Assembly (NCBI RefSeq): GCF_018139645.1 | Contig: NZ_JAGSPM010000001.1 | Coordinates: forward strand, 310,001-374,000 | Source of the DNA: Affinundibacterium baiyunense | Lineage (GTDB): Bacteria > Pseudomonadota > Gammaproteobacteria > Burkholderiales > Burkholderiaceae_D | Reading direction: 5' to 3' | DNA: 64,000 nucleotides | Shown here: positions 4,380 through 17,932 of the stretch, piece by piece | How positions within the stretch are numbered: the first letter of the stretch is position 1 | Layout of the letters: every line of letters begins with the position of its first letter | Program-made: the position numbers and the translations under genes | The notes under the pieces: generated by a model | Database searches by the model: none | What the model saw: the letters and a program-made list of their open reading frames with translations, nothing else | What the model was told of the DNA's origin: nothing

Positions 4380-5384
4380 TCATTTCCAGGGGCGTTCGAA
4401 TGCTCCTTGTGTCACCTGCGCTCCCTCAGCATGTTTCGCCAAGGTCGCGTTCCAATCCGGCCTTGCTGTATATCGCTCAGGATCACGTTCAGCTGAATCC
4501 AGCGCTGCGCGCAAAGTCCCAACCACTTGTGACACATAATTTGGACTACGTTGACGACCTTCAATCTTGATCGCTTTCACGCCCATTTTAAGCAACTGCG
4601 GCAGCAAGCCGATGGCATTCAAACTGGTCGGTTCTTCTAAAGCGTAATCGACTTGCCCCTCTACTTCAAAACGACCTTTGCACAGTGTCGGATAACCAGC
4701 CGCTTCGTTAGGTGCATAGCGGTCGATTAAGGTGCCGCTCAAACGCGCGGATAAAACCTTGTCTTTTTCTTCCCAGCTAACAGCATGACCAGGCGAGCAT
4801 ACGCCTTTATTATTCGGTGAATCACCCGTGACATAACTCGATAACAAGCAACGTCCTTCAGCCATCACACATAAGCTACCGAAGCCAAACACTTCAATTT
4901 CAACCTCGGTCTGACGAATGATTTTTTCAATTTCAGTCAGTGTTAATACGCGTGGCAAAACAGCGCGACGTATGCCAAATTGTTCGCGCATCAATTCGAT
5001 TGCATCGACCGTGGTGGATGAACTTTGCACAGACAAATGCAAACGCACATCAGGATAACGATGACGTGCGTAAGCCATTAAACCAGGATCCGCCAAAATG
5101 ATCGCGTCAGCACCTAGCAGTACCGCGGTATCGATGGCAGCGCGCCATTCGTGCGCCATTTGCGCTTGCGGGTAAGTATTGATCGCGAACAGAACTTGTT
5201 TGCCGCGGTGGTGGGCATATTCCACGCCAAGCCGAATGTCGGCATCGGTAAAATTGAGACCACCAAAATTACGTGCATTGGTGGCATTGCGTAAGCCTAG
5301 ATAAACGGCATCAGCGCCTTTGTCGATGGCTGCTTTGAGTGCAACTAAGCTGCCGGCAGGCGCTACGAGATCGATTGTTTTCAT
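4380..5384 (-). CDS. ubiU: Oxygen-independent ubiquinone hydroxylation protein UbiU (U32 family)
   Basis: A 334-residue U32-family protein, partner of UbiV in anaerobic ubiquinone hydroxylation. Cysteines at 172, 179, 196 and 235 have the spacing (7, 17, 39) of the 4Fe-4S ligands of E. coli UbiU, in the contexts GSLCVM, GRCLLSSY, VCSPGH and YPTLCKGR. The N-terminus APAGSLVALKAAIDKGADAVY is characteristic. A TTG two codons upstream could also start the frame, but the ATG at 5384 gives the usual length. First gene of a ubiU-ubiV-ubiT-DGC series that runs toward narG; the 286-base region upstream (5391-5676) must hold its promoter, but I could not identify a clear FNR site there. Confidence 0.94.
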   Translation of the reverse strand: MKTIDLVAPAGSLVALKAAIDKGADAVYLGLRNATNARNFGGLNFTDADIRLGVEYAHHRGKQVLFAINTYPQAQMAHEWRAAIDTAVLLGADAIILADPGLMAYARHRYPDVRLHLSVQSSSTTVDAIELMREQFGIRRAVLPRVLTLTEIEKIIRQTEVEIEVFGFGSLCVMAEGRCLLSSYVTGDSPNNKGVCSPGHAVSWEEKDKVLSARLSGTLIDRYAPNEAAGYPTLCKGRFEVEGQVDYALEEPTSLNAIGLLPQLLKMGVKAIKIEGRQRSPNYVSQVVGTLRAALDSAERDPERYTARPDWNATLAKHAEGAQVTQGAFERPWK

Positions 5385-5676
5385 GCGCAAGATGGTAGCG
5401 ATACGCTGTAGGCGTGTCTTTGTCTTAGGTCAATGAAATCATGGATGCACCAAACAGTAACAAAGGTTGGCAGGTGCAACCTACTTCATGCACTATGAAG
5501 TTCTGTTACTAGATATCTAGTAATGCCGCAAAAACATAATTCAAAAATCTTGAACATCAAACTTAGCCAACCACAAGTGTGTCGTCAACGACTACCTAGA
5601 TGAAATTCATTACTCCCACCGATCTGAAGATCGTCAACACCAAGCATTGAAAACCATCGCAATCATAAACAATGGT

Positions 5677-7377: not shown

Positions 7378-7896
7378 TTAGATCTTACCGCTTGGCGAGC
7401 TGTAAATAGCTGGTGCAAAGAGTCGATGTACTGCAAGAGTGCAAAACGCAATGGTCGCCACATATCCCATTAAAAATACAGGAAATGGTAGAACACCGTA
7501 ATCTAATGGCTTAGCCACGCCTAAAAAGCTTCCATACAGTAAACTGCCAGTCGAAATGCCAAACATCAAATTGCGACGTGCCACCGAAGCAGTTCGCATG
7601 GTTTTTTGAATCATGAATGATGTGACTCCCCATATCAAGACGAGACTAACCTTTGTCCATAATTTTGGATTGTTTAGATATTCAGAGAGACTGCTCTGAT
7701 AGATGCCTGCAACGATCAAGAGCGCGCCTGAGATCCACAAATGTGTTTCACCCCACGAGAAAATCTTTCGCCAAAGTGGCTGACTGATTTCGTCACCTCG
7801 GATGACACGAGAGAAATGAAACACCGACATCATCGCTGCAACAGTCGCAATTACATGATAGAAAGCGGCAAAAGCAATAATACATTTAGTGACCAT
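7378..7896 (-). CDS. Small polytopic membrane protein, function unknown
   Basis: A 172-residue protein with about five hydrophobic segments: near residues 6-27, 50-68, 82-98, 118-132 and 138-158. No family could be named with confidence. The ATG at 7896 is chosen over a TTG at 7917 because it follows the stop of the DUF1513 gene by only two bases, implying translational coupling. It therefore shares the transcript of that gene and the Fur-like site upstream of it, which suggests a role in iron or heme metabolism. No metal-binding motif stands out apart from scattered histidines in the first half. It could be a permease-like partner or a redox membrane component. Confidence 0.7.
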   Translation of the reverse strand: MVTKCIIAFAAFYHVIATVAAMMSVFHFSRVIRGDEISQPLWRKIFSWGETHLWISGALLIVAGIYQSSLSEYLNNPKLWTKVSLVLIWGVTSFMIQKTMRTASVARRNLMFGISTGSLLYGSFLGVAKPLDYGVLPFPVFLMGYVATIAFCTLAVHRLFAPAIYSSPSGKI

Positions 7897-7898
7897 AT

Positions 7899-9056
7899 TC
7901 AACTCATCAAAACCCAATGATTATCAAGTGCCATCGGCTTTGGCCATGCCAAAAATGCTGGTTTTGCATTAATGTGCCACCGAATCAGACCAACTGCAGT
8001 CGCGACTAAGACGCCACCTCCTGGCTGAGGCCCACTCCAATCAGTCAAGGCATATGCTTCATCCATCTCGACAATCGGCAACAATTTGTCGGGCTGCCCT
8101 GGATGCCACAGCTGCGCAATCCCAGCTTTGTTACTGGAAAGTGCAAATCCACCATTCCAAACTGAAGTGATGTCTCCTGCATAACCATGTCCATCATTCT
8201 CACGGCTAGGCGTACTTAATTTTTCTCCGTCGAAAACCGCCAATATCGGCGCGGTGGCGCGTTGAGTCCGCTGGTCATGCTCTGCTTGCATAGCGATGCC
8301 TAATCTAAGTTTGCCATCCATTGGCGAACGACTCCAAGCAATATGACGCATACTTAGACGCGGGTCATCCAATGCCCATCGTTCCATTTGATGCCCATTT
8401 TGACCATCTAGGCGGACCAGACTAGAATCCATACGATGCAAGTCGTACTTCTTATCTGACAGCGAGCGTCGCACCCCGCCATTGGCAATCAAGAGTCTGC
8501 CCGCCTCGTCAATCAGCGCTTGGTGTGGTTCAATACCACCACTTGCCCACTCATCAATTTTTTTGAGACTTTGAGGATCACGTACACCGATGCGTCCCTG
8601 ATCATTTTTATAGTCGATCTCTGTTGTGTAAAGCAACTCTTTACCTGCAACGATATGGCCACTTAAGCGAACACTTTGAGATTCAGCTGTGACATCGATT
8701 TGTTGCACAATTTTGCCTTTGCCGTCGCATCTCATGAGCCACGTACCGGGACGTACACCATTGACTAGCAATCCACCACCGACTTCAGATACCAAACCGT
8801 GTGGGCGCGTAGGCAGAGCGACCTGATAACGAATTTCCAAAGTCTTGCGCTCCCAATTTGCAGCTAATACACCGGCATAATGTGTGTCGTCCAACTTAGG
8901 TCCGCGCCAAGAGGCCCCGATGAGGGTTATTTGCTCACTGTCCCCTTCGAACTCCCCCTTCTGAAACCTAGGGTTCATAGAAAATGATGTCTGTGGTACC
9001 AAGCCAAGTGCAGCAAGAGAATACAGGAAGTGGCGACGATTTAAAGAGGTACTCAT
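7899..9056 (-). CDS. DUF1513 protein, exported, Fur-associated
   Basis: A 385-residue protein with an N-terminal signal (NRRHFLYSLAALGLVPQTSFS) resembling a twin-arginine or Sec leader, so periplasmic or lipid-tethered. The body has repeated beta-propeller-like segments (HGLVSEVGGG, HIAWSRSP, GYAGDITSVW). It resembles DUF1513 proteins, which commonly occur with imelysin-type iron uptake genes; their biochemical role is unknown. The ATG at 9056 is preferred to an upstream frame extension because the leader then sits at the N-terminus and the Fur-like site at 9099-9117 falls in the promoter. Its stop is two bases from the next gene. The expected imelysin and di-heme oxidoreductase partners are absent here. 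Confidence 0.78.
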   Translation of the reverse strand: MSTSLNRRHFLYSLAALGLVPQTSFSMNPRFQKGEFEGDSEQITLIGASWRGPKLDDTHYAGVLAANWERKTLEIRYQVALPTRPHGLVSEVGGGLLVNGVRPGTWLMRCDGKGKIVQQIDVTAESQSVRLSGHIVAGKELLYTTEIDYKNDQGRIGVRDPQSLKKIDEWASGGIEPHQALIDEAGRLLIANGGVRRSLSDKKYDLHRMDSSLVRLDGQNGHQMERWALDDPRLSMRHIAWSRSPMDGKLRLGIAMQAEHDQRTQRATAPILAVFDGEKLSTPSRENDGHGYAGDITSVWNGGFALSSNKAGIAQLWHPGQPDKLLPIVEMDEAYALTDWSGPQPGGGVLVATAVGLIRWHINAKPAFLAWPKPMALDNHWVLMS

Positions 9057-9098
9057 AGTAGAAATAGCATGATCTATGATCGTTGAAAAATATAAATG

Positions 9099-9117
9099 TA
9101 AATCATTCTCATTTATA
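9099..9117 (-). promoter_or_regulatory. Fur box before the DUF1513 gene
   Basis: Read on the minus strand the site contains AATGAGAATGATTTAC, one arm of which is identical to the Fur box of the divergent heme operon. It lies about 45-60 bases upstream of the DUF1513 start codon, a normal operator position. Iron repression is inferred. Confidence 0.7.
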
Positions 9118-9480: not shown

Positions 9481-9499
9481 AATGAGAATGATTCTCATT
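9481..9499 (+). promoter_or_regulatory. Fur box of the heme uptake operon
   Basis: AATGAGAATGATTCTCATT is a perfect 9-1-9 inverted repeat matching the Fur box layout. It lies about 215 bases before the receptor start. The remaining stretch between the two divergent operons (9118-9480 and 9500-9714) shows no gene. Expression under iron limitation is expected. Confidence 0.88.
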
Positions 9500-9714
9500 T
9501 ATGATAGAATCCGCTTTGCATTAATTGCTTTAGACCTTTCAGATTTACTCTAAAGCTGAACCCAGCCAGCATTCGCCAGCCTTTGATGGAAAGCTATTCC
9601 GCAGATTCATTCGGCACTCAAGGTCTGCGCTTACTTTCCTCACTTCTTTCATTTCTTCATTAAAAAATAAGCTTACCAGCTTAGCTGGATAGCGTTTGTT
9701 TGCTTGGGAATCCT

Positions 9715-12006
9715 ATGCGTAAAGTCATTTCATCAAATCGCCCTATCAGTCACCGTCATCAACTGGCATTAGCAATTGCAACGATATTTGCACAACAACT
9801 AGCAATGGCGCAAAGTCAAACGGCCCCACCAAAAAGTCAGGATTTAGGAACCACCGTGGTAACAGCCACACGAATCGAAACTCAAGCAGAGAACGTCTCG
9901 GGTACGGTCACCAGCATAGAGCGCAAAATGTTAGATCGTCGTTTTATTGGTAGCAGTGCTGATTTGTTTAAAGATGAGCCGGATATTGCGATGGCAAAAG
10001 ACTTGCGCCGCTTTGGTGCGACACGCGTCAATATAAGGGGGATTGAGGACAACCGAGTTTTGCAGACAGTCGATGGGGTTCGCTTACCCGATTACTACAA
10101 TGGTGGTGGCCCAACCAATTTCACCATGAGCGCAACGCCTGGCAGCATGCCAGACTTCCTAAAACAAGTGGAAGTTGTTCGCGGAGCAGCGTCAAGCTTG
10201 TATGGCTCGGATGCACTGGCTGGTGTCGTTGGCTATATCACACTAAAACCACAGGATCTTTTAGGCGCTGAACAAACTACAGCAACACGACTCAAGTTAA
10301 GCTACAACGGCAGCAATCAAGGGTGGACAAAAACTGCTTTGCTTGCAGCTCGCACTGGTAGTGTAGATTGGTTGTTTGGCGCTTCACACAATTCTGCGCA
10401 AGAAACAAAAAACAAAGGTGAAGATGCGTCCAAATCACCTACGCGTAGTAAACCAAATCCACAAGACAATACCGATTACGGTGTCCTGACAAAAGCAATT
10501 TGGCGTCCCGAACCTAGTCACAAATTAAGTTGGACTATTGAAGGACGAGAAAGCCAATCTGAAAATGACATCTTACGCTTAGCCGCCTCTATGCCTAAGC
10601 TCACCAGCATGCAAGGTGATGATCAGGTTCGACGAGTACGCAGCAGTCTTGAATGGGAACATCAACCCCAACAGGCTTGGTATGATCGATTCAGTGCGCG
10701 TCTCTTTTCCCAAAATGCGCAGACGCATAACCACAACATCGCGCTACGTCGAAATACTTCGGCAACTTGTTCGGCCGCTGCGGGAGCAGGAAACAATTGC
10801 TCGCTCGATCAAGACTTCTTTTTTGACCAATCAACACGCGGTCTGAACACGCTAGTCGAAAAAGCTTGGGAAACAGCGGGATTAACACACATCATAAGCG
10901 GTGGTTTGGATTGGAGTCGGGTTCAGGTTGAAGAGAAACGGGATGCGAAAATTCGCAACGAAACAACCGGAACAAATTTAAATAGTCTGGCTGGAGAAAC
11001 CTATCCCTTGCGTGATTTCGCCAACGGCAGAACCACACAATCTGGCTTATTTATACAAGATGAAATCGACGGACTTGCAAATGGCGCCCTGCAATTAGCG
11101 ATGGGGGTACGCTATGATCGTACCCAGCTTAGTCCAGAAATTGATGCGTTAGCGCAGCAAACACTAAGCTTATTGGGCAGAACACTGAGCGCGCCTACCC
11201 ATAGTGCTGTATCTCCCAAAATTAGCGCACGCTGGCGCGTCGATCCGTCTTTACAAGCCTATGCACAACTGGCAAAAGGCTTCCGCGCGCCAAACTATTC
11301 AGAAGTGAATGGCGCGTTTCGTAATTCTAGTCAATTCTACTCAGTTGTCCCAAATGCCGATCTCAAACCAGAGACCAGCAATGGTCTTGAACTTGGATTA
11401 CGAGGTAACTCAGATAACATGCGTTGGCACATCGCGATCTTCGACAACCGTTATCGCGATTTTATCGAGACAGTTCAATTGAGTTGCCCTAGCGATCCAC
11501 GCTGTTATGCACCCAGCCCAGCGTGGCGAACCAATACCTCAATCAATCTCACCAAGGTACGCATCTATGGCGCAGAAACGCGTGGCAGTTGGACTTTAGC
11601 ACCATCATGGCAAGCAGACTTTGCATTTGCTTACAGTCATGGTGAAAATCAGGATAATCAGCAAGCTCTCAACTCGATTGAACCCATGCGTGCTAGTGCT
11701 GGGCTAATGTATCAAACCACAGCTTGGGGTTTAGAAACTAGAATTCGTGGCGCAGCACGAAAAAAAGATGTGGACGACACACCGAGTCCTTATTTCAAGC
11801 CCGCAGCCTATGCAACCGTAGATCTGAGTACATGGTGGTCGCCGTCTAAACACTACCGCATTCAGGCAGGTATTAGCAATTTGCTGGATAAAAAATACTG
11901 GCTCTGGAGTGATATACGCCAAGCCGATGCACCGAATCCGCAAGGTGTGGCGTTTTATTCCCAGCCAGGACGTTCTTTTCACCTAAGTTTACAGGCTGAT
12001 TTCTAA
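9715..12006 (+). CDS. hmuR: TonB-dependent heme/hemoglobin receptor
   Basis: A 763-residue outer-membrane receptor of the TonB-dependent hemoglobin/heme family. A signal peptide covers about residues 1-33 (ending ..QQLAMAQ), followed by a TonB-box/plug region with VVTATRIE, RVNIRGIEDNRVL and RGAASSLYGSDALAG, then the beta-barrel with KGFRAPNYSEVNG, the FRAP-type motif of heme receptors, and a C-terminal aromatic residue (LSLQADF). The ATG at 9715 is chosen over a TTG at 9700 because the leader then starts MRK. Its stop overlaps the start of the CobN-like gene (TAATG), so the two are translationally coupled. A strong Fur box lies upstream. The exact ligand (free heme or hemoprotein) cannot be told. 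Confidence 0.9.
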   Translation: MRKVISSNRPISHRHQLALAIATIFAQQLAMAQSQTAPPKSQDLGTTVVTATRIETQAENVSGTVTSIERKMLDRRFIGSSADLFKDEPDIAMAKDLRRFGATRVNIRGIEDNRVLQTVDGVRLPDYYNGGGPTNFTMSATPGSMPDFLKQVEVVRGAASSLYGSDALAGVVGYITLKPQDLLGAEQTTATRLKLSYNGSNQGWTKTALLAARTGSVDWLFGASHNSAQETKNKGEDASKSPTRSKPNPQDNTDYGVLTKAIWRPEPSHKLSWTIEGRESQSENDILRLAASMPKLTSMQGDDQVRRVRSSLEWEHQPQQAWYDRFSARLFSQNAQTHNHNIALRRNTSATCSAAAGAGNNCSLDQDFFFDQSTRGLNTLVEKAWETAGLTHIISGGLDWSRVQVEEKRDAKIRNETTGTNLNSLAGETYPLRDFANGRTTQSGLFIQDEIDGLANGALQLAMGVRYDRTQLSPEIDALAQQTLSLLGRTLSAPTHSAVSPKISARWRVDPSLQAYAQLAKGFRAPNYSEVNGAFRNSSQFYSVVPNADLKPETSNGLELGLRGNSDNMRWHIAIFDNRYRDFIETVQLSCPSDPRCYAPSPAWRTNTSINLTKVRIYGAETRGSWTLAPSWQADFAFAYSHGENQDNQQALNSIEPMRASAGLMYQTTAWGLETRIRGAARKKDVDDTPSPYFKPAAYATVDLSTWWSPSKHYRIQAGISNLLDKKYWLWSDIRQADAPNPQGVAFYSQPGRSFHLSLQADF

Positions 12007-15000
12007 TGTCATTCTTACGTACACTTGTCGTCGCTTTGACGCTATTCAGTGCGCTGGTTAGCTCTTCCGCTCTTGGTGCGGAAGAGCCTTCGAAATCGAT
12101 CCTATTTATCGCAACATCGAATGTCCCTACGGGTAAATTCCGCCTATTAAATGAAATTGCAGCGCCACTAAGATTGAAGGTAGAAGTTCGTTATGTCGAT
12201 AAATTACCCGCCGATACAGATGCTGGTTTATTTACTCCATACGCGGCTGTATTTATCGATTCTTATTTACAAGATTACGTTAAAGGACGTTTATCCAAAG
12301 CATTACCCGGATTGAAATTACCTTGGGTTTGGTTATATCAAGCACAAGCATCGTTCGGTCAATTTCCTGAGGAAACCGCCAAGCGACTTTTAACGCACTA
12401 CTCTCAAGGTGGTCGAAAAAATTTTGAGGCATTCTTTAAAGTGCTTCAAGCTCACTTGCAACATCGTCATTTTGCTGGGATTCCCGCACCTATCATCTAC
12501 CCTACGCAGGGAATTTATCATCCGCTAGCCAACGGAGAAATTTTCTCCAGCGTCGATAGTTTTAAAAACTGGCGAGTGCGACAAGGGCAATCAGTTTCAG
12601 CCCGAGGCTCGGTCGTTGCGATCTTGATTCACCAGCAATATTTATCGTCCGAGCAAACCTCTTGGTTTGACGATTTGGTGCAACGAATAGAAGCACGTGG
12701 CGCAATCGCCATGCCAGTCTATGCCGCCGCAACCGAGAGCGTCATCCCATTTCTGAGTAGGGATGGGAAAAGCCTAGTGGATTTAATCATTAACACCCAA
12801 ATCATGCTAGCGCCAGAGCTCAGGAAAATTGACTTCGCCGGATTAGGTGTTCCCGTATTACAAGCGACTGCTTACCGTCGCGGTGATAGCAAGGAATGGC
12901 GTGCAGATCAGCAAGGCTTGGCCTTGGCTGATGTCCCTTTTTATTTGGCACAATCCGAATACACGGGTATCAGCGACATCATGATTATTGCAGCACATGA
13001 TAAGAGTGCTGATCAAATCGTAGCAATTCCAGAACAAAGCCAAGCACTCGCAGACAAAGCACTGCGCATGCTAGCACTTCAGCAAAAGCCACATGCAGAG
13101 AAGCGCTTGGGGCTGATGTTCTGGAACTATCCACCTGGAGAAAAAAATCTGTCTGCGTCTTATCTAAATTTGCCAAGGAGTTTAGTGCAAACTTTGGAGG
13201 TCTTACGCAAGGATGGTTATCAAACAAGTGTGCACGATGAAACGACACTCACCAGTAACTTGCAGCGTCTGCTCGCCCCTTCTTATCGTGACGGCGAATT
13301 GCCTGGTCTCTTACGCGACGACCTAGCAGAATTATTTCCTGTTGCAAGCTATCGATCATGGCTACAGCAACAAACAAAAGAAGTTCAAGATGCCTTGAAT
13401 CAGCGCTGGGGAGACCCAGAGCGTTCAGCGATGACGATACAAAAAGGAGGTCAAAGTTACTTTGTGGTGCCGCGCTTTAAACTCGGTAATCTGGTGATGC
13501 TGCCTCAAGCACCACGCGGGGAAAAATGGGAGGAAAAGGAAAAAGCTTTGTACCATCATCCCAAAGCACTTCCCTCACATTTCTATCTCGCCAGCTACCT
13601 ATGGCTTCGCCAACAATTCAAAGCAGATGCCTTAATTCATTACGGCACCCACGGCTCACAAGAATGGTTGCCTGGTAAAGAAAGGGGCTTGTCCGTGTAT
13701 GACTACCCATTGCTGGCGTTAGGCGATCTGCCTGTGATCTACCCCTACATTGTCGATAATATTGGCGAAGCTTTACAAGCTAAACGACGTGGGCGTGCGG
13801 TAACGATCACGCATCAGACACCTGCTTTTACGCCCGCAGGATTGCACGATTCTTTGATCGAAATTCATGATTTACTGCATGCATGGTTGGCACAAGATCT
13901 GGGTGCGGTCAAAGACAAAATTGCACAAGACTTGATAAAACGCGTTAAAGCGCAAAAAATCGATAAAGATTTAGCATGGAGCGACGACAAAATAGCGCAT
14001 GACTTCCAAGGTTTTGTCACGCTGGTACATGATCATTTACACGAACTAGCGCAAACTGCGCAGCCATTGGGACTACACACATTCGGAGTTGCACCACAAC
14101 ATACGCATCGTATCGGTACCGTCCTATTGATGCTAGGTCGCGGTTACTGGGAAGCGGTTGGCCGCTGGGCAAAAGTGAAAGACGATGATTTAGATGAAGT
14201 GATGGTAGGCGACTATCGCCAACTTCAAAAAAATCTCGCCTACCGCATGATGGATGACTATATTTTAGAACAGAAGATGCCAGAAAATTTACCAATTGCG
14301 TTACAGGACAAGCTCAAATTGGCACATAGTTGGTATCAGTCTTTAGCTGCGCAACAAGAACAAACGAGCTTATTACATGCCTTAGATGGACGATACATAC
14401 CAAGCTCGTATGGCGGTGATCCAATCAAAAATCCTGATGCCTTGCCTACCGGTCGCAACCTATATGGTTTTGATCCATCTCGGATACCAACACAGCAAGC
14501 ATGGGCCGCAGGCAAGGAAGCGCTTGATAAATTGCTTCTCGCGCATCAGCAAAAACACGGTAGCTCACCGCGTAAATTGACTTTCTCACTGTGGTCAGTC
14601 GAAACCATGCGTCATCAAGGTATTTTGGAAGCACAAGCACTCTGGGCTTTAGGTGTAGAACCTGTATGGGATGCGGGTGGACGTGTAACGGGTGTACGCT
14701 TAATTCCGAGAGAGCAATTAGGACGTCCTCGCGTCGATGTGGTGCTCTCTGTGACTGGGCTCTATCGCGATCAATTCCCCAACACTATGCAGCAATTAGT
14801 CAAAGCGGTTCAGATCGCGGCACAAGCCAAGGAAACAGATAATGCGGTTGCTCAGAACAGCTTGAAAATGGCAGCAAAACTCCGAGAAGCTGGCATACCT
14901 GAAGACCAGATCAATAACGCTGCACAAACACGCATATTTTCGTCAGAATCTGGCCGCTACGGCACAGGACTAGACGACGCGACCTTGGCCAGCAATAGTT

Positions 15001-16022
15001 GGAAAAGTAAAGAAGACGGTGATAAAAAACTCGCTCAACTCTATTTAAGTCGTATGCAATTTGCTTACGGAGCAGACCAAAGTCAATGGGGCAATAAGCT
15101 CGATGCGGTAAATCTGTACGCTGAAGCTTTGCGGGGAACCGATGCTGCGGTGCTGTCGCGCAGTTCAAATCTCTACGGCATGCTGACGACCGACGATCCA
15201 TTCCAATATCTTGGAGGAATCTCCTTAGCGGTGCGACATCTAGATGGAACGCCGCCAGAGTTATACATTTCAAATTTACGTGAGGCGGGTCAAAACGGAT
15301 CAGGAAAAGTAGAGAGTGCAGCAGGGTTTCTCGCAAAAGAACTCGCAACACGAAATTTCCATCCAGGTTATATCAAAGGACTGATGGCTGAAGGATACGC
15401 TGGCACGCTACAAATTGTCGATTCAATGAATAATTTCTGGGGCTGGCAAGCAGTCGCACGTGAAGTCGTGCGTGATGATCAATGGCAAGAGTTTGTCGAT
15501 GTGTATGTCAAAGACAAACATCAATTGGGCTTAAGAAAATGGTTTCAGGAAAATAATCCCCATGCCTTAGCGCAGACCATTGAACGGATGTTAGAAGCTG
15601 CACGCAAAGACTATTGGAAGGCAGATGCGGCAACAGTGAATGAACTAAAGCGCGAGTATTTAGCGCTGGCGAAGCAACATGACGTCACCACAGACAATGC
15701 TACGTTTTCGGAGTTTATTGGTCTTGGTCAACAAGCGCTGCCTTCTGTGCCAAATAAGCCGTCGGCTGCGTCAAAAACAAAGGTCAGCGCTAAGCCGAAG
15801 CAGTCCACTCAAGCGGCACCACAAGCGGCGACAAAGCCTACTTCGCAAGTCGCTCCCATCATCAAAGGTTTTCAACTGCAAAAACTGACACCATCGACGC
15901 CAGATACACCTGACAAACTTTGGCATCTGTCTGAATTATGGGGCGTAATCGCCATGTTATTGGCATTCATCTGCGGCATGTCTTTGCAAATGCGATCAAA
16001 GAAAAGCACGTACCAAAATTAG
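12006..16022 (+). CDS. hmuS: Secreted, membrane-anchored CobN-like protein (HmuS type)
   Basis: A 1338-residue protein of the CobN/BchH magnesium- and cobalt-chelatase large-subunit family. Unlike cytoplasmic CobN it has a signal peptide (residues ~1-24, ending SSALGA) and a single C-terminal membrane helix (~1312-1330) after a Ser/Thr/Ala/Pro/Lys-rich linker (~1250-1300), so the body should be periplasmic and anchored. The CobN core is intact: YGTHGSQEWLPGKE near residue 545 and AKRRGRAVTITH shortly after. Position between a heme receptor and a TolQ-like protein matches HmuS of the Bacteroidota hmuYRSTUV loci, where it is reported to remove the metal from heme. Heme de-metallation here is inferred. 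No chelatase ATPase partners (CobS/CobT, ChlI/ChlD) lie nearby, arguing against B12 synthesis. Confidence 0.9.
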   Translation: MSFLRTLVVALTLFSALVSSSALGAEEPSKSILFIATSNVPTGKFRLLNEIAAPLRLKVEVRYVDKLPADTDAGLFTPYAAVFIDSYLQDYVKGRLSKALPGLKLPWVWLYQAQASFGQFPEETAKRLLTHYSQGGRKNFEAFFKVLQAHLQHRHFAGIPAPIIYPTQGIYHPLANGEIFSSVDSFKNWRVRQGQSVSARGSVVAILIHQQYLSSEQTSWFDDLVQRIEARGAIAMPVYAAATESVIPFLSRDGKSLVDLIINTQIMLAPELRKIDFAGLGVPVLQATAYRRGDSKEWRADQQGLALADVPFYLAQSEYTGISDIMIIAAHDKSADQIVAIPEQSQALADKALRMLALQQKPHAEKRLGLMFWNYPPGEKNLSASYLNLPRSLVQTLEVLRKDGYQTSVHDETTLTSNLQRLLAPSYRDGELPGLLRDDLAELFPVASYRSWLQQQTKEVQDALNQRWGDPERSAMTIQKGGQSYFVVPRFKLGNLVMLPQAPRGEKWEEKEKALYHHPKALPSHFYLASYLWLRQQFKADALIHYGTHGSQEWLPGKERGLSVYDYPLLALGDLPVIYPYIVDNIGEALQAKRRGRAVTITHQTPAFTPAGLHDSLIEIHDLLHAWLAQDLGAVKDKIAQDLIKRVKAQKIDKDLAWSDDKIAHDFQGFVTLVHDHLHELAQTAQPLGLHTFGVAPQHTHRIGTVLLMLGRGYWEAVGRWAKVKDDDLDEVMVGDYRQLQKNLAYRMMDDYILEQKMPENLPIALQDKLKLAHSWYQSLAAQQEQTSLLHALDGRYIPSSYGGDPIKNPDALPTGRNLYGFDPSRIPTQQAWAAGKEALDKLLLAHQQKHGSSPRKLTFSLWSVETMRHQGILEAQALWALGVEPVWDAGGRVTGVRLIPREQLGRPRVDVVLSVTGLYRDQFPNTMQQLVKAVQIAAQAKETDNAVAQNSLKMAAKLREAGIPEDQINNAAQTRIFSSESGRYGTGLDDATLASNSWKSKEDGDKKLAQLYLSRMQFAYGADQSQWGNKLDAVNLYAEALRGTDAAVLSRSSNLYGMLTTDDPFQYLGGISLAVRHLDGTPPELYISNLREAGQNGSGKVESAAGFLAKELATRNFHPGYIKGLMAEGYAGTLQIVDSMNNFWGWQAVAREVVRDDQWQEFVDVYVKDKHQLGLRKWFQENNPHALAQTIERMLEAARKDYWKADAATVNELKREYLALAKQHDVTTDNATFSEFIGLGQQALPSVPNKPSAASKTKVSAKPKQSTQAAPQAATKPTSQVAPIIKGFQLQKLTPSTPDTPDKLWHLSELWGVIAMLLAFICGMSLQMRSKKSTYQN

Positions 16023-16060
16023 CCCCCTTACCCATTTTTATTTTTTTATTGAGAGGTTTT

Positions 16061-16546
16061 ATGTTAGTGTCACTTGAACAAAGCATGTACCAACTGAGTC
16101 AGTTCTTCCTACTACCTACTTTATTATTGATCGCTTTATTATTTCTATTTTCTTGTTATGTGGCTGGACGATTTTTAATCGAATGCGTGCAAAGACGTCG
16201 TGGCGCTGCTCGGCCCCTATTTCTTTGGTGGGAAGCACATCGTACGGCGAGTGATGATGAACTCGACGTATTCGCCCACAAACAAATGGAGACCGAGCGT
16301 ATCGTGACGCGCGTCGCACCGATGATGGGCTTGGTGGCGACGATGATCCCAATGGGACCCGCCTTAAAATCACTCTCCGATGGCAATTTTTCAGCAGTGT
16401 CCGAAAACCTGATGGTTGCCTTTTCTGCCGTGATTTTGGCCTTGATCGCAGCATCCATCACATTTTTTGTCGTCAATATCAGACGTCGTTGGTTGGCAGA
16501 AGAAATGCTAGAAATCGCTAACATTCGTCAGCAGGTGAAACAATGA
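16061..16546 (+). CDS. hmuT: MotA/TolQ/ExbB-type proton channel protein (HmuT type)
   Basis: A 161-residue inner-membrane protein with three hydrophobic segments (~19-40, 88-105, 117-138). The second and third, with APMMGLVATMIPMGPAL and FSAVILALIAASITFFVV, carry the pattern of the TolQ/ExbB/MotA proton channel family. The ATG at 16061 follows GAGAGG by 4 bases and fixes the start; a longer in-frame opening lies inside hmuS and is not used. It is 38 bases downstream of hmuS and overlaps the DUF2149 gene by ATGA. It most likely forms an energising complex with that protein, dedicated to the CobN-like protein or the receptor rather than a general TonB motor, as no TonB gene is present. Confidence 0.87.
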   Translation: MLVSLEQSMYQLSQFFLLPTLLLIALLFLFSCYVAGRFLIECVQRRRGAARPLFLWWEAHRTASDDELDVFAHKQMETERIVTRVAPMMGLVATMIPMGPALKSLSDGNFSAVSENLMVAFSAVILALIAASITFFVVNIRRRWLAEEMLEIANIRQQVKQ

Positions 16547-16875
16547 AACTCCTGCACGAACCAGAAAGCGACGATCCAATTTTATCAGTCGTTAATTTGA
16601 TCGATGTATTTTTAGTGCTGATCGCCGCCTTGCTCATCGTCGTCGCCAAAAATCCTATTCTCAATGCTTTTGCTAAAACAGACGTGACGGTCATTAGCAA
16701 TGCAGGCAAATCCAATATGGAAATTTTGGTGAAGCAAGGACAAAAGATTGAACGCTACAAGAGCAATGGCCAAGCGGGACAAGGTGAAGGTGCAAAAGCC
16801 GGCACTGCCTATCGGCTCAAAGATGGCTCAATTATTTACGTGCCAGAAGATGACAATGCGAAGCAATCACCTTGA
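16543..16875 (+). CDS. hmuU: DUF2149 protein, ExbD-like partner (HmuU type)
   Basis: A 110-residue protein with one N-terminal membrane helix (~18-37, DVFLVLIAALLIVVAKNP) and a periplasmic tail, the topology of ExbD/TolR. An Asp at the start of the helix (LIDVFLVL) is where ExbD/TolR/MotB keep their proton-carrying Asp. The sequence fits DUF2149, found beside CobN-like and TolQ-like genes in heme loci. The start overlaps hmuT by four bases. Last gene of the Fur-controlled series. Gene symbols here follow the Bacteroidota naming by position and are not a claim of proven function. Confidence 0.85.
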   Translation: MKLLHEPESDDPILSVVNLIDVFLVLIAALLIVVAKNPILNAFAKTDVTVISNAGKSNMEILVKQGQKIERYKSNGQAGQGEGAKAGTAYRLKDGSIIYVPEDDNAKQSP

Positions 16876-17012: not shown

Positions 17013-17031
17013 CGCGAATAATAATCATTAC
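17013..17031 (+). promoter_or_regulatory. Fur-box-like site before a dead siderophore gene
   Basis: GAATAATAATCATTACC keeps most of the Fur consensus in its right arm (ATAATCATTA) and lies about 80 bases before the start of the IucA/IucC-like pseudogene. Iron control of the former gene is inferred. Confidence 0.6.
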
Positions 17032-17108
17032 CACTTATAATTGGACCTGTGATGCTTGCGCCGCGTTCACGCAAGCACACTTCATGCCGATTTTTCGACA
17101 AACCTAAG

Positions 17109-17932
17109 ATGATGAACAAAATGCCGAATCAAGCACATTCCCCAGAGCACTTCTATGCCGATGCGGCTGAACGTACATTACGTCAATTCATTTCTGCATT
17201 TTGGTTCTAAGGCGCTTTAGGTGGGTCCATCGAACCATGCATCGATGGCAAAACCTACGTTTATTTGCAAGCGGTAGATGAACAAGCGCAGCACTTCACT
17301 TACCGCATACAAGCTTACCCAGCAGATAGCTTTGGGCGGCACCGTTTGCAAGGTGCTGTCATCGAACTTAACAACGAATCAGCTGAGCCTACGCTCGCGA
17401 AGATTGCCAACAATTTATTAAGGTCAGTACCATCACCCCAGCGTTGACGCTACATCAATGAGTTAATTCACACCACGGCCAAGCAGGCTTGTTCATTGCA
17501 AGCTCAAATCGACATGGGGCCATCTGGCGGCGTGCTGGACTTGCTCTATGCGTGGCAAGAAGCCCAGTTAGGTGATGGGCATCCCTATCATCCTTGCCAC
17601 CGTTCTCGCATCGGCTTTGATCTAACTGACCATCAGCGTTATGGGCCAGAATTCGCTCAAGGATTTACACTTGCTTGGCTGGCGCTGGATAAGAGACTGA
17701 GCGCGGTGCATGGCCTCACAGACGGTGACTATGTACACTTCTTGGAAACAGAAATCGGTGCAGAGAATCTAGCCTATTTACAGTCTGCTGTGACCAGTGC
17801 AGGTAAGTCGCCAGAGAATTATTTTTTATTACCGGTCTATCCCTGACATTGACAACACAGCTTACAAATTCAATATACGGGCTGTCTAGCGTTAAGTGAT
17901 GGGGCAATGGTTTGGCGACTACAGCTTACCAT
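17109..17932 (+). pseudogene. Decayed IucA/IucC-family siderophore synthetase, 5' part
   Basis: One continuous reading frame of about 275 codons resembles the N-terminal part of NIS siderophore synthetases, enzymes that condense citrate or dicarboxylates with amines. Diagnostic pieces are GHPYHPCHRSRIGFD and YGPEFAQGFTLAWLALD, then FLLPVYP. The frame is broken by stops at 17208-17210 (TAA), 17445-17447 (TGA), 17844-17846 (TGA) and 17850-17852 (TGA). The last two fall where the family motif PVHPWQW has its tryptophans, so they look like TGG to TGA changes. No frameshift is needed. Homology fades near 17930 and the C-terminal half is missing. A Fur-like site precedes it. The strain has therefore probably lost synthesis of this siderophore, at least from this locus. 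Confidence 0.85.

Follow-up and report, generated by a model that had tools for sequence, protein, structure and literature searches.

The 64,000-nt window of Affinundibacterium baiyunense analysed here (contig NZ_JAGSPM010000001.1, positions 310,001 to 374,000) contains an operon of four rightward genes behind a Fur-like palindrome, encoding a TonB-dependent receptor, a CobN-like protein, a TolQ/MotA-like channel protein and a DUF2149 protein. On balance, the operon appears to be a Fur-repressed heme-iron module, in which heme uptake would be followed by removal of the iron in the periplasm by the CobN-like protein coupled to a proton motor. By the features published for HmuS, the CobN-like protein appears to be a sister of this heme de-chelatase and not HmuS itself, and it may work in an HmuS-like manner. 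The operon comprises the following features.

9481–9499, forward strand: Fur-like box of the operon, AATGAGAATGATTCTCATT, two mismatches to the consensus
9482–9510: promoter-like element overlapping the operon's Fur-like box, TG preceding the −10 element (promoter scan, consensus match only)
9715–12006, forward strand: TonB-dependent receptor of the heme/hemoglobin family (TIGR01786, TIGR01785), nearest solved relative PhuR
12006–16022, forward strand: CobN-like class I chelatase-fold protein, 1338 aa (PF02514, 1020 bits)
16061–16546, forward strand: TolQ/MotA/ExbB-like proton channel protein (HmuU-like), 161 aa (PF01618, 31.2 bits), start chosen by alignment
16543–16875, forward strand: DUF2149 protein (HmuV-like; PF09919, 105 bits)

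The four genes overlap or nearly touch, as the initial annotation of the sequence had stated, and their families were confirmed. The stop of the receptor gene and the start of the CobN-like gene share one nucleotide, 38 nt separate the CobN-like gene from the channel gene, and the channel and DUF2149 genes overlap by 4 nt. The proposed Fur control is supported by context, through the box in front of the operon: a scan with one consensus and up to three mismatches found three Fur-like sites (four strand matches) in the 64 kb, against 0.06 expected. A second, phase-shifted Fur consensus gave zero sites in the window. Control by an RNA element, such as a B12 riboswitch, was rejected, as no Rfam family reached its gathering score there. 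The designation of the operon as hmuRSTU-type could not be kept in the strict sense: no open reading frame for HmuY or HmuT is present at 9.1–17 kb, and a gap of only 38 nt leaves no HmuT between the CobN-like and TolQ-like genes.

The receptor exceeds two curated cut-offs for heme receptors, scoring 427.9 bits on TIGR01786 (cut-off 323.75) and 385.6 bits on TIGR01785 (316.85). Its best sequence match among solved structures is PhuR (265 bits), followed by transferrin-binding protein A (92) and ShuA (59); a literature search found no paper stating the heme ligands of PhuR. Phu systems feed an inner-membrane ATP-binding cassette (ABC) importer and a heme oxygenase. The window receptor is nearest to this type of uptake, but the importer and oxygenase families searched gave no heme candidate in the window genome. 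Profile searches by family in the draft genome (99.45% complete) returned no match to heme oxygenase PF01126, HemS PF05171 or DUF2470 PF10615, IsdG, HutZ-type, radical-SAM and other heme-degrading families not being included in the search. The statement that neither a heme oxygenase nor a heme ABC importer lies near the operon thus holds, and extends genome-wide to these families. A heme ABC importer elsewhere in the genome was also rejected, since both FecCD permeases adjoin B12-receptor-like and B12-salvage genes: each has a B12-receptor-like neighbour, accompanied at one permease by CobO and a CobU-like gene and at the other by CobB (CobO and CobB score above their model cut-offs, the B12-receptor-like and CobU-like genes below theirs). 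The draft genome encodes one FeoB, a single ChaN at a distance of about 255 kb, and only one PF02514 protein, the CobN-like protein of the window. The gene for ChaN, a heme-binding lipoprotein, is found inside sister operons, including those of both same-genus relatives (L037, L142). The Fur-like box, the PhuR-like receptor, ChaN in the sister operons and FeoB together make heme the likely cargo, so that the earlier proposal of heme stands on context.

Relatives of the operon were collected in a scan of named genomes, which confirmed at least 583 relatives of the query alignment among at least 596 stretches; the best 80 were kept. Together with plasmids and further genomes they provided 118 loci whose CobN-like protein scored 900 bits or more, reduced to 113 by removal of five near-copies. 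The predicted model of the window CobN-like protein (predicted local distance difference test score 88.4) matches the class I chelatase fold, and its His549 is equivalent to the catalytic His538 of HmuS, with His present in 113/113 loci. Both ends of the protein are hydrophobic, the best 19-residue means being 1.96 and 1.95 by hydropathy only. These values fit both the signal peptide and the C-terminal anchor of the initial annotation; a signal or anchor at each end is predicted, and hence a periplasmic placement.

When iron is limiting, heme or a closely related iron porphyrin would enter the periplasm through the PhuR-like receptor. The end-anchored CobN-like protein would bind heme in the class I chelatase cavity and remove the iron, acting as a chelatase in reverse, as HmuS does, and the released ferrous iron would be taken up by FeoB. 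ATP is absent from the periplasm, and the demetallation cycle is therefore proposed to be driven by protons, with the TolQ-like/DUF2149 pair as its motor.

Several features of the CobN-like protein set it apart from HmuS. Asp1064 and Gln1067 stand at the positions of HmuS His1209 and Glu1212 (motif LSLDHxxEFMGG), Ile266 occupies the His254 position in two alignments, and the protein falls outside the HmuS clade. The Met-rich insertion of HmuS (domain IV) is absent; the stretch from GTHG to GGDPI has 256 residues with 5 Met in the window protein, against 312–499 residues with 11–35 Met in three HmuS references. With Asp1064/Gln1067 and Ile266 replacing the HmuS residues, the bis-His arrangement proposed for HmuS is impossible in the window protein. 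No Met corresponds to Met79 of HmuS heme site 1, where the alignment is less secure and reference L022 likewise lacks Met.

It is conceivable, if rather unlikely, that the metal, iron or another one, is taken by the CobN-like protein from a chelate distinct from heme, for example a siderophore-like complex, coproheme or some other iron tetrapyrrole. An active-site pair unlike that of HmuS and like that of CobN would suit a substrate of this kind, as would the degraded IucA/IucC gene with its own Fur-like box directly downstream of the operon and the occurrence of sister branches in zinc, nickel and corrinoid contexts. These points count against heme, but the receptor, with its scores above the heme-family cut-offs and its proximity to PhuR, and ChaN in the sister operons favour it.

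The assignment of a motor function to the channel and DUF2149 proteins is based on layout and gene context. The profile of the TolQ-like protein gave weak matches to TolQ and MotA chains (best E 0.0023). DUF2149 has one helix (residues 12–36) and a periplasmic part; Asp21 in this helix is invariant in 23/23 proteobacterial rows and kept in 7/8 broader rows, Runella having Glu. One helix with an acidic residue plus a periplasmic part is the layout of ExbD, TolR and MotB. DUF2149 resembles these proteins in layout; no ExbD or TolR chain was found by sequence comparison, and the predicted model is poor outside the helix. Channel and DUF2149 were both found in 102/113 loci. The proton motor may take the place of the AAA+ ATPases that drive CobN and ChlH in the cytoplasm.

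Alternatively, the pair might energise the receptor as a substitute for ExbB/ExbD, with the CobN-like protein as a periplasmic heme binder or shuttle that performs no demetallation. The figure legend of PMC12583661 draws HmuU/HmuV as powering HmuR, and a receptor lies within 10 kb in 54/55 well-flanked loci, which tells against the pair as a motor of the chelatase. Trichlorobacter locus L016, however, has its own ExbB-ExbD-TonB set adjoining the channel/DUF2149 pair, and eight Variovorax-type loci keep the channel, DUF2149 and CobN-like genes contiguous with no receptor match within 9 kb (flanks are shorter in L015 and L077). The separate ExbB-ExbD-TonB set and the receptor-free loci favour a motor for the chelatase over a motor for the receptor, and the invariance of His549 in the 113 loci speaks against a mere shuttle; we consider this alternative decidedly unlikely. 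The Variovorax-type loci (L015, L076, L077, L081, L084, L095, L098 and L101), which have no close receptor, also have neither a Fur nor a Zur call.

HmuS of Bacteroides thetaiotaomicron (hmuYRSTUV; PDB 9d26) is reported as a membrane-bound heme de-chelatase in PMC12583661; HmuS of P. gingivalis and BtuS1/BtuS2 of B. fragilis are treated in PMC13227078 and PMC6460266, respectively. The window shares with the HmuS system the receptor, a class I chelatase-fold protein with hydrophobic ends, the TolQ-like channel, DUF2149 and His538. It differs in lacking HmuY, HmuT and the Met-rich insertion, in the replacement of His254, His1209 and Glu1212, in its separate clade, and in its Fur box and PhuR-like receptor, with ChaN in some relatives. 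In the IQ-TREE phylogeny, the three HmuS rows form one side of a branch with support of 100, and the window protein belongs to the other group, with support of 96. FastTree and IQ-TREE agree on three groups, HmuS, CobN with BchH, and the receptor-linked proteins; the trees are unrooted and thus give no order of branching among the three. The trees were built without the fragments L047, L048 and L070, and one FastTree run also without L123. The phylogeny, which the initial annotation had proposed as a check with clustering with HmuS as support, sets the protein apart from B12-type CobN, but outside the HmuS clade.

If the protein were simply HmuS, as an ortholog of this bis-His heme de-chelatase brought into a betaproteobacterium, that would account for the same gene types, the predicted double anchor, the conserved His538 and the best PDB sequence match, which is HmuS at 399 bits. 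Identity to the HmuS references is nevertheless about 25%, no more than to CobN (27%) or BchH (26–27%), and the clade, the ligand residues and the missing insertion already contradict this very improbable candidate, which was rejected. A B12-type CobN can scarcely be entertained and was rejected as well: the protein passes the NCBIfam model NF004644 'cobaltochelatase subunit CobN' (1425 bits, cut-off 1248) and has the Asp/Gln pair of CobN, but it differs from the CobN and BchH/ChlH class I chelatases in its separate clade, in its receptor and channel neighbours and in its hydrophobic ends with the predicted anchors, the C-terminal segment being present in 0/9 CobN references. The operon holds no cob genes, and no CbiC (PF02570) was found in the draft genome by a search that was positive in 7/14 control genomes, which argues against B12 ring synthesis. 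The grouping with B12-type CobN that the initial annotation had held against its own proposal was thus not found.

Published descriptions of PA1922–PA1925 of P. aeruginosa, a zinc-starvation operon under Zur (PMC4542158, PMC8531726, PMC9431628), name the four gene types of the window operon: a receptor, a CobN-like protein, a proton-channel-type protein and DUF2149. The review PMC10393844 suspects an importer of non-chelated zinc, the preprint PMC11761036 speculates on a cobalt origin, and PMC13083405 points out the CobN annotation of the operon. The initial annotation had matched the genes to a set best known from Bacteroidota; PA1922–PA1925 and the best 80 named loci show that the set is not specific to that group, and the annotation overlooked the zinc-regulated relatives in Proteobacteria. 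The Pseudomonas operon is Zur-regulated by published account, whereas the window has a Fur box and no Zur call. A literature search found no paper connecting HmuS with PA1923, which is weak evidence of absence, as the hits were mostly judged by listing. Stutzerimonas L083, which we infer to be the counterpart of PA1923, agrees with HmuS in its His/Glu/His residues, and its receptor is CirA-like, in contrast to Asp/Gln and a heme-family receptor in the window.

Across the loci, the residue at the His1209 position varies together with the regulator and the receptor. A box was called where the best match reached at least 13/19 and lay above 95% of shuffles; some operon starts were set by profile matches and may be off. 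The 85 loci with Asp gave 41 Fur calls, 1 Zur call, 40 without a call and 3 too short; the 27 loci with His gave 18 Zur calls, 0 Fur calls, 8 without a call and 1 too short (L047 is unreadable at this position). Control upstream regions of other genes, taken from loci with called genes only, yielded 12 Fur and 4 Zur calls in 308 for the Asp loci and 3 Fur and 5 Zur calls in 97 for the His loci. Receptors matching TIGR01785 (E up to 1e-93) occur in 29/39 Fur-called loci (the 41 minus two without a receptor within 1.5 kb) against 0/18 Zur-called ones; 15/18 Zur-called receptors score well on the CirA model, below its cut-off in the one member examined. ChaN (PF04187, E 1e-38) lies inside the operon in 11/85 Asp-class and 0/27 His-class loci; for a CobW-type GTPase within 9 kb, the corresponding counts are 3/85 and 6/27. 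The coupling is supported by Rhodoplanes L093, which has His, a Zur box and CobW and does not belong to the main zinc clade.

Fisher's test on the Fur/Zur counts (41/1 versus 0/18) gives 2e-14. Mapping on the tree yields three changes of the residue and two of the box, and the three independent pairs comprise two that are concordant and one that shows no difference (sign test p 0.5). With so few independent switches, 41/1 versus 0/18 is not to be read as that many events, and the coupling of residue and regulator is supported by only two independent evolutionary switches. Other observations also detract from it. The 'nearest' receptor is a second, downstream one in about six Fur-called loci, and Lampropedia L068, which carries Asp/Gln and lies within the His/Zur clade, scores weakly for both Zur and Fur, the two ranking differently between scans. 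The Zur box called at Stutzerimonas L083 (14/19, p 0.007) contrasts with PMC10393844, where, among Pseudomonas groups and on the basis of 150 bp upstream and another consensus, regulation of PA1922 by Zur 'seems unique to P. aeruginosa'.

A broader interpretation is tentative. Possibly, HmuS belongs to a widespread family of demetallases that work in the periplasm and are driven by a proton motor, the TolQ-like/DUF2149 pair, in place of the AAA+ ATPase of the cytoplasmic chelatases; each of its branches, HmuS being one, would pull a single metal from a tetrapyrrole or similar chelate. The family would include a Fur/heme branch (Asp/Gln), a Zur/zinc branch of the PA1922–1925 type (His/Glu/His), and perhaps nickel- or corrinoid-linked branches.

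The relatives occur in varied settings. On a Runella slithyformis plasmid (L018, 1–13166), a hyp hydrogenase-maturation cluster encloses the receptor, channel, DUF2149 and CobN-like genes together with a 'urease accessory protein' gene, which may mark a nickel branch. The module on a Trichlorobacter lovleyi plasmid (L016, 1–14048) may represent a corrinoid or cobalt branch; it adjoins BzaF, DUF2162 and the separate ExbB-ExbD-TonB set, which comes with a second receptor. In a His/Glu-class subclade (L060, L061, L062, L115, L122), Leu replaces His254 and neither a Fur nor a Zur box was called, one locus being too short. In L012, L023, L026, L045 and L049, the module is repeatedly accompanied by an NnrS-family gene (tested in L026 only) and by a gene for a periplasmic NMT1-like binding protein (tested in L012 and L045). 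The CobN-like gene of Nitrosomonas europaea (L070) is apparently interrupted, with a best open reading frame of 562 aa. Among the long-branch members, L126 has a second CobN-family match adjoining, and L017 and L019 have a CobW-type gene nearby. Distribution within the window genus is patchy, with the gene in 2/35 other genomes, and random draws gave matches in 18/399 genomes of the order (E limit 1e-130, the window's own genome included). The CobN-like protein of the same-genus genome G028 is identical to that of Undibacterium rivi, which would place the window most probably in Undibacterium. No relative was found in viral contigs.

The operon is flanked by two further Fur-like boxes and a divergent gene.

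9095–9113, reverse strand: second Fur-like box (three mismatches), in front of the DUF1513 gene
7899–9056, reverse strand: divergent DUF1513 gene (PF07433, 155 bits), start taken as the ATG before an RR-containing leader
17017–17035: third Fur-like box, before the degraded IucA/IucC gene (consensus scan)

The second box precedes a divergent pair (7378–9056) of the DUF1513 gene and a membrane protein gene whose match to DUF2214 is below threshold; the DUF1513 gene is possibly co-regulated with the operon. The degraded siderophore-synthetase gene (17100–17850) matches PF04183 over 17496–17846, its upstream part being interrupted. UbiU, for O2-independent ubiquinone synthesis, is encoded at 4380–5390 (NF047963, 526.7 bits, cut-off 440), a hint that the host can live at low oxygen.

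HmuS chemistry has so far been described for anaerobic gut and oral Bacteroidota. The comparison ties the unexplained zinc-starvation operon PA1922–1925 to a structurally characterised demetallase family and names an exchange, Asp/Gln versus His/Glu, that may bear on metal choice. If the tentative family interpretation is true, the orphan P. aeruginosa zinc operon would gain a mechanism and the His/Asp exchange would be a switch of metal specificity. If the sister branch strips heme, many Proteobacteria, given at least 583 relatives of the query alignment, may recover heme iron without heme oxygenase.

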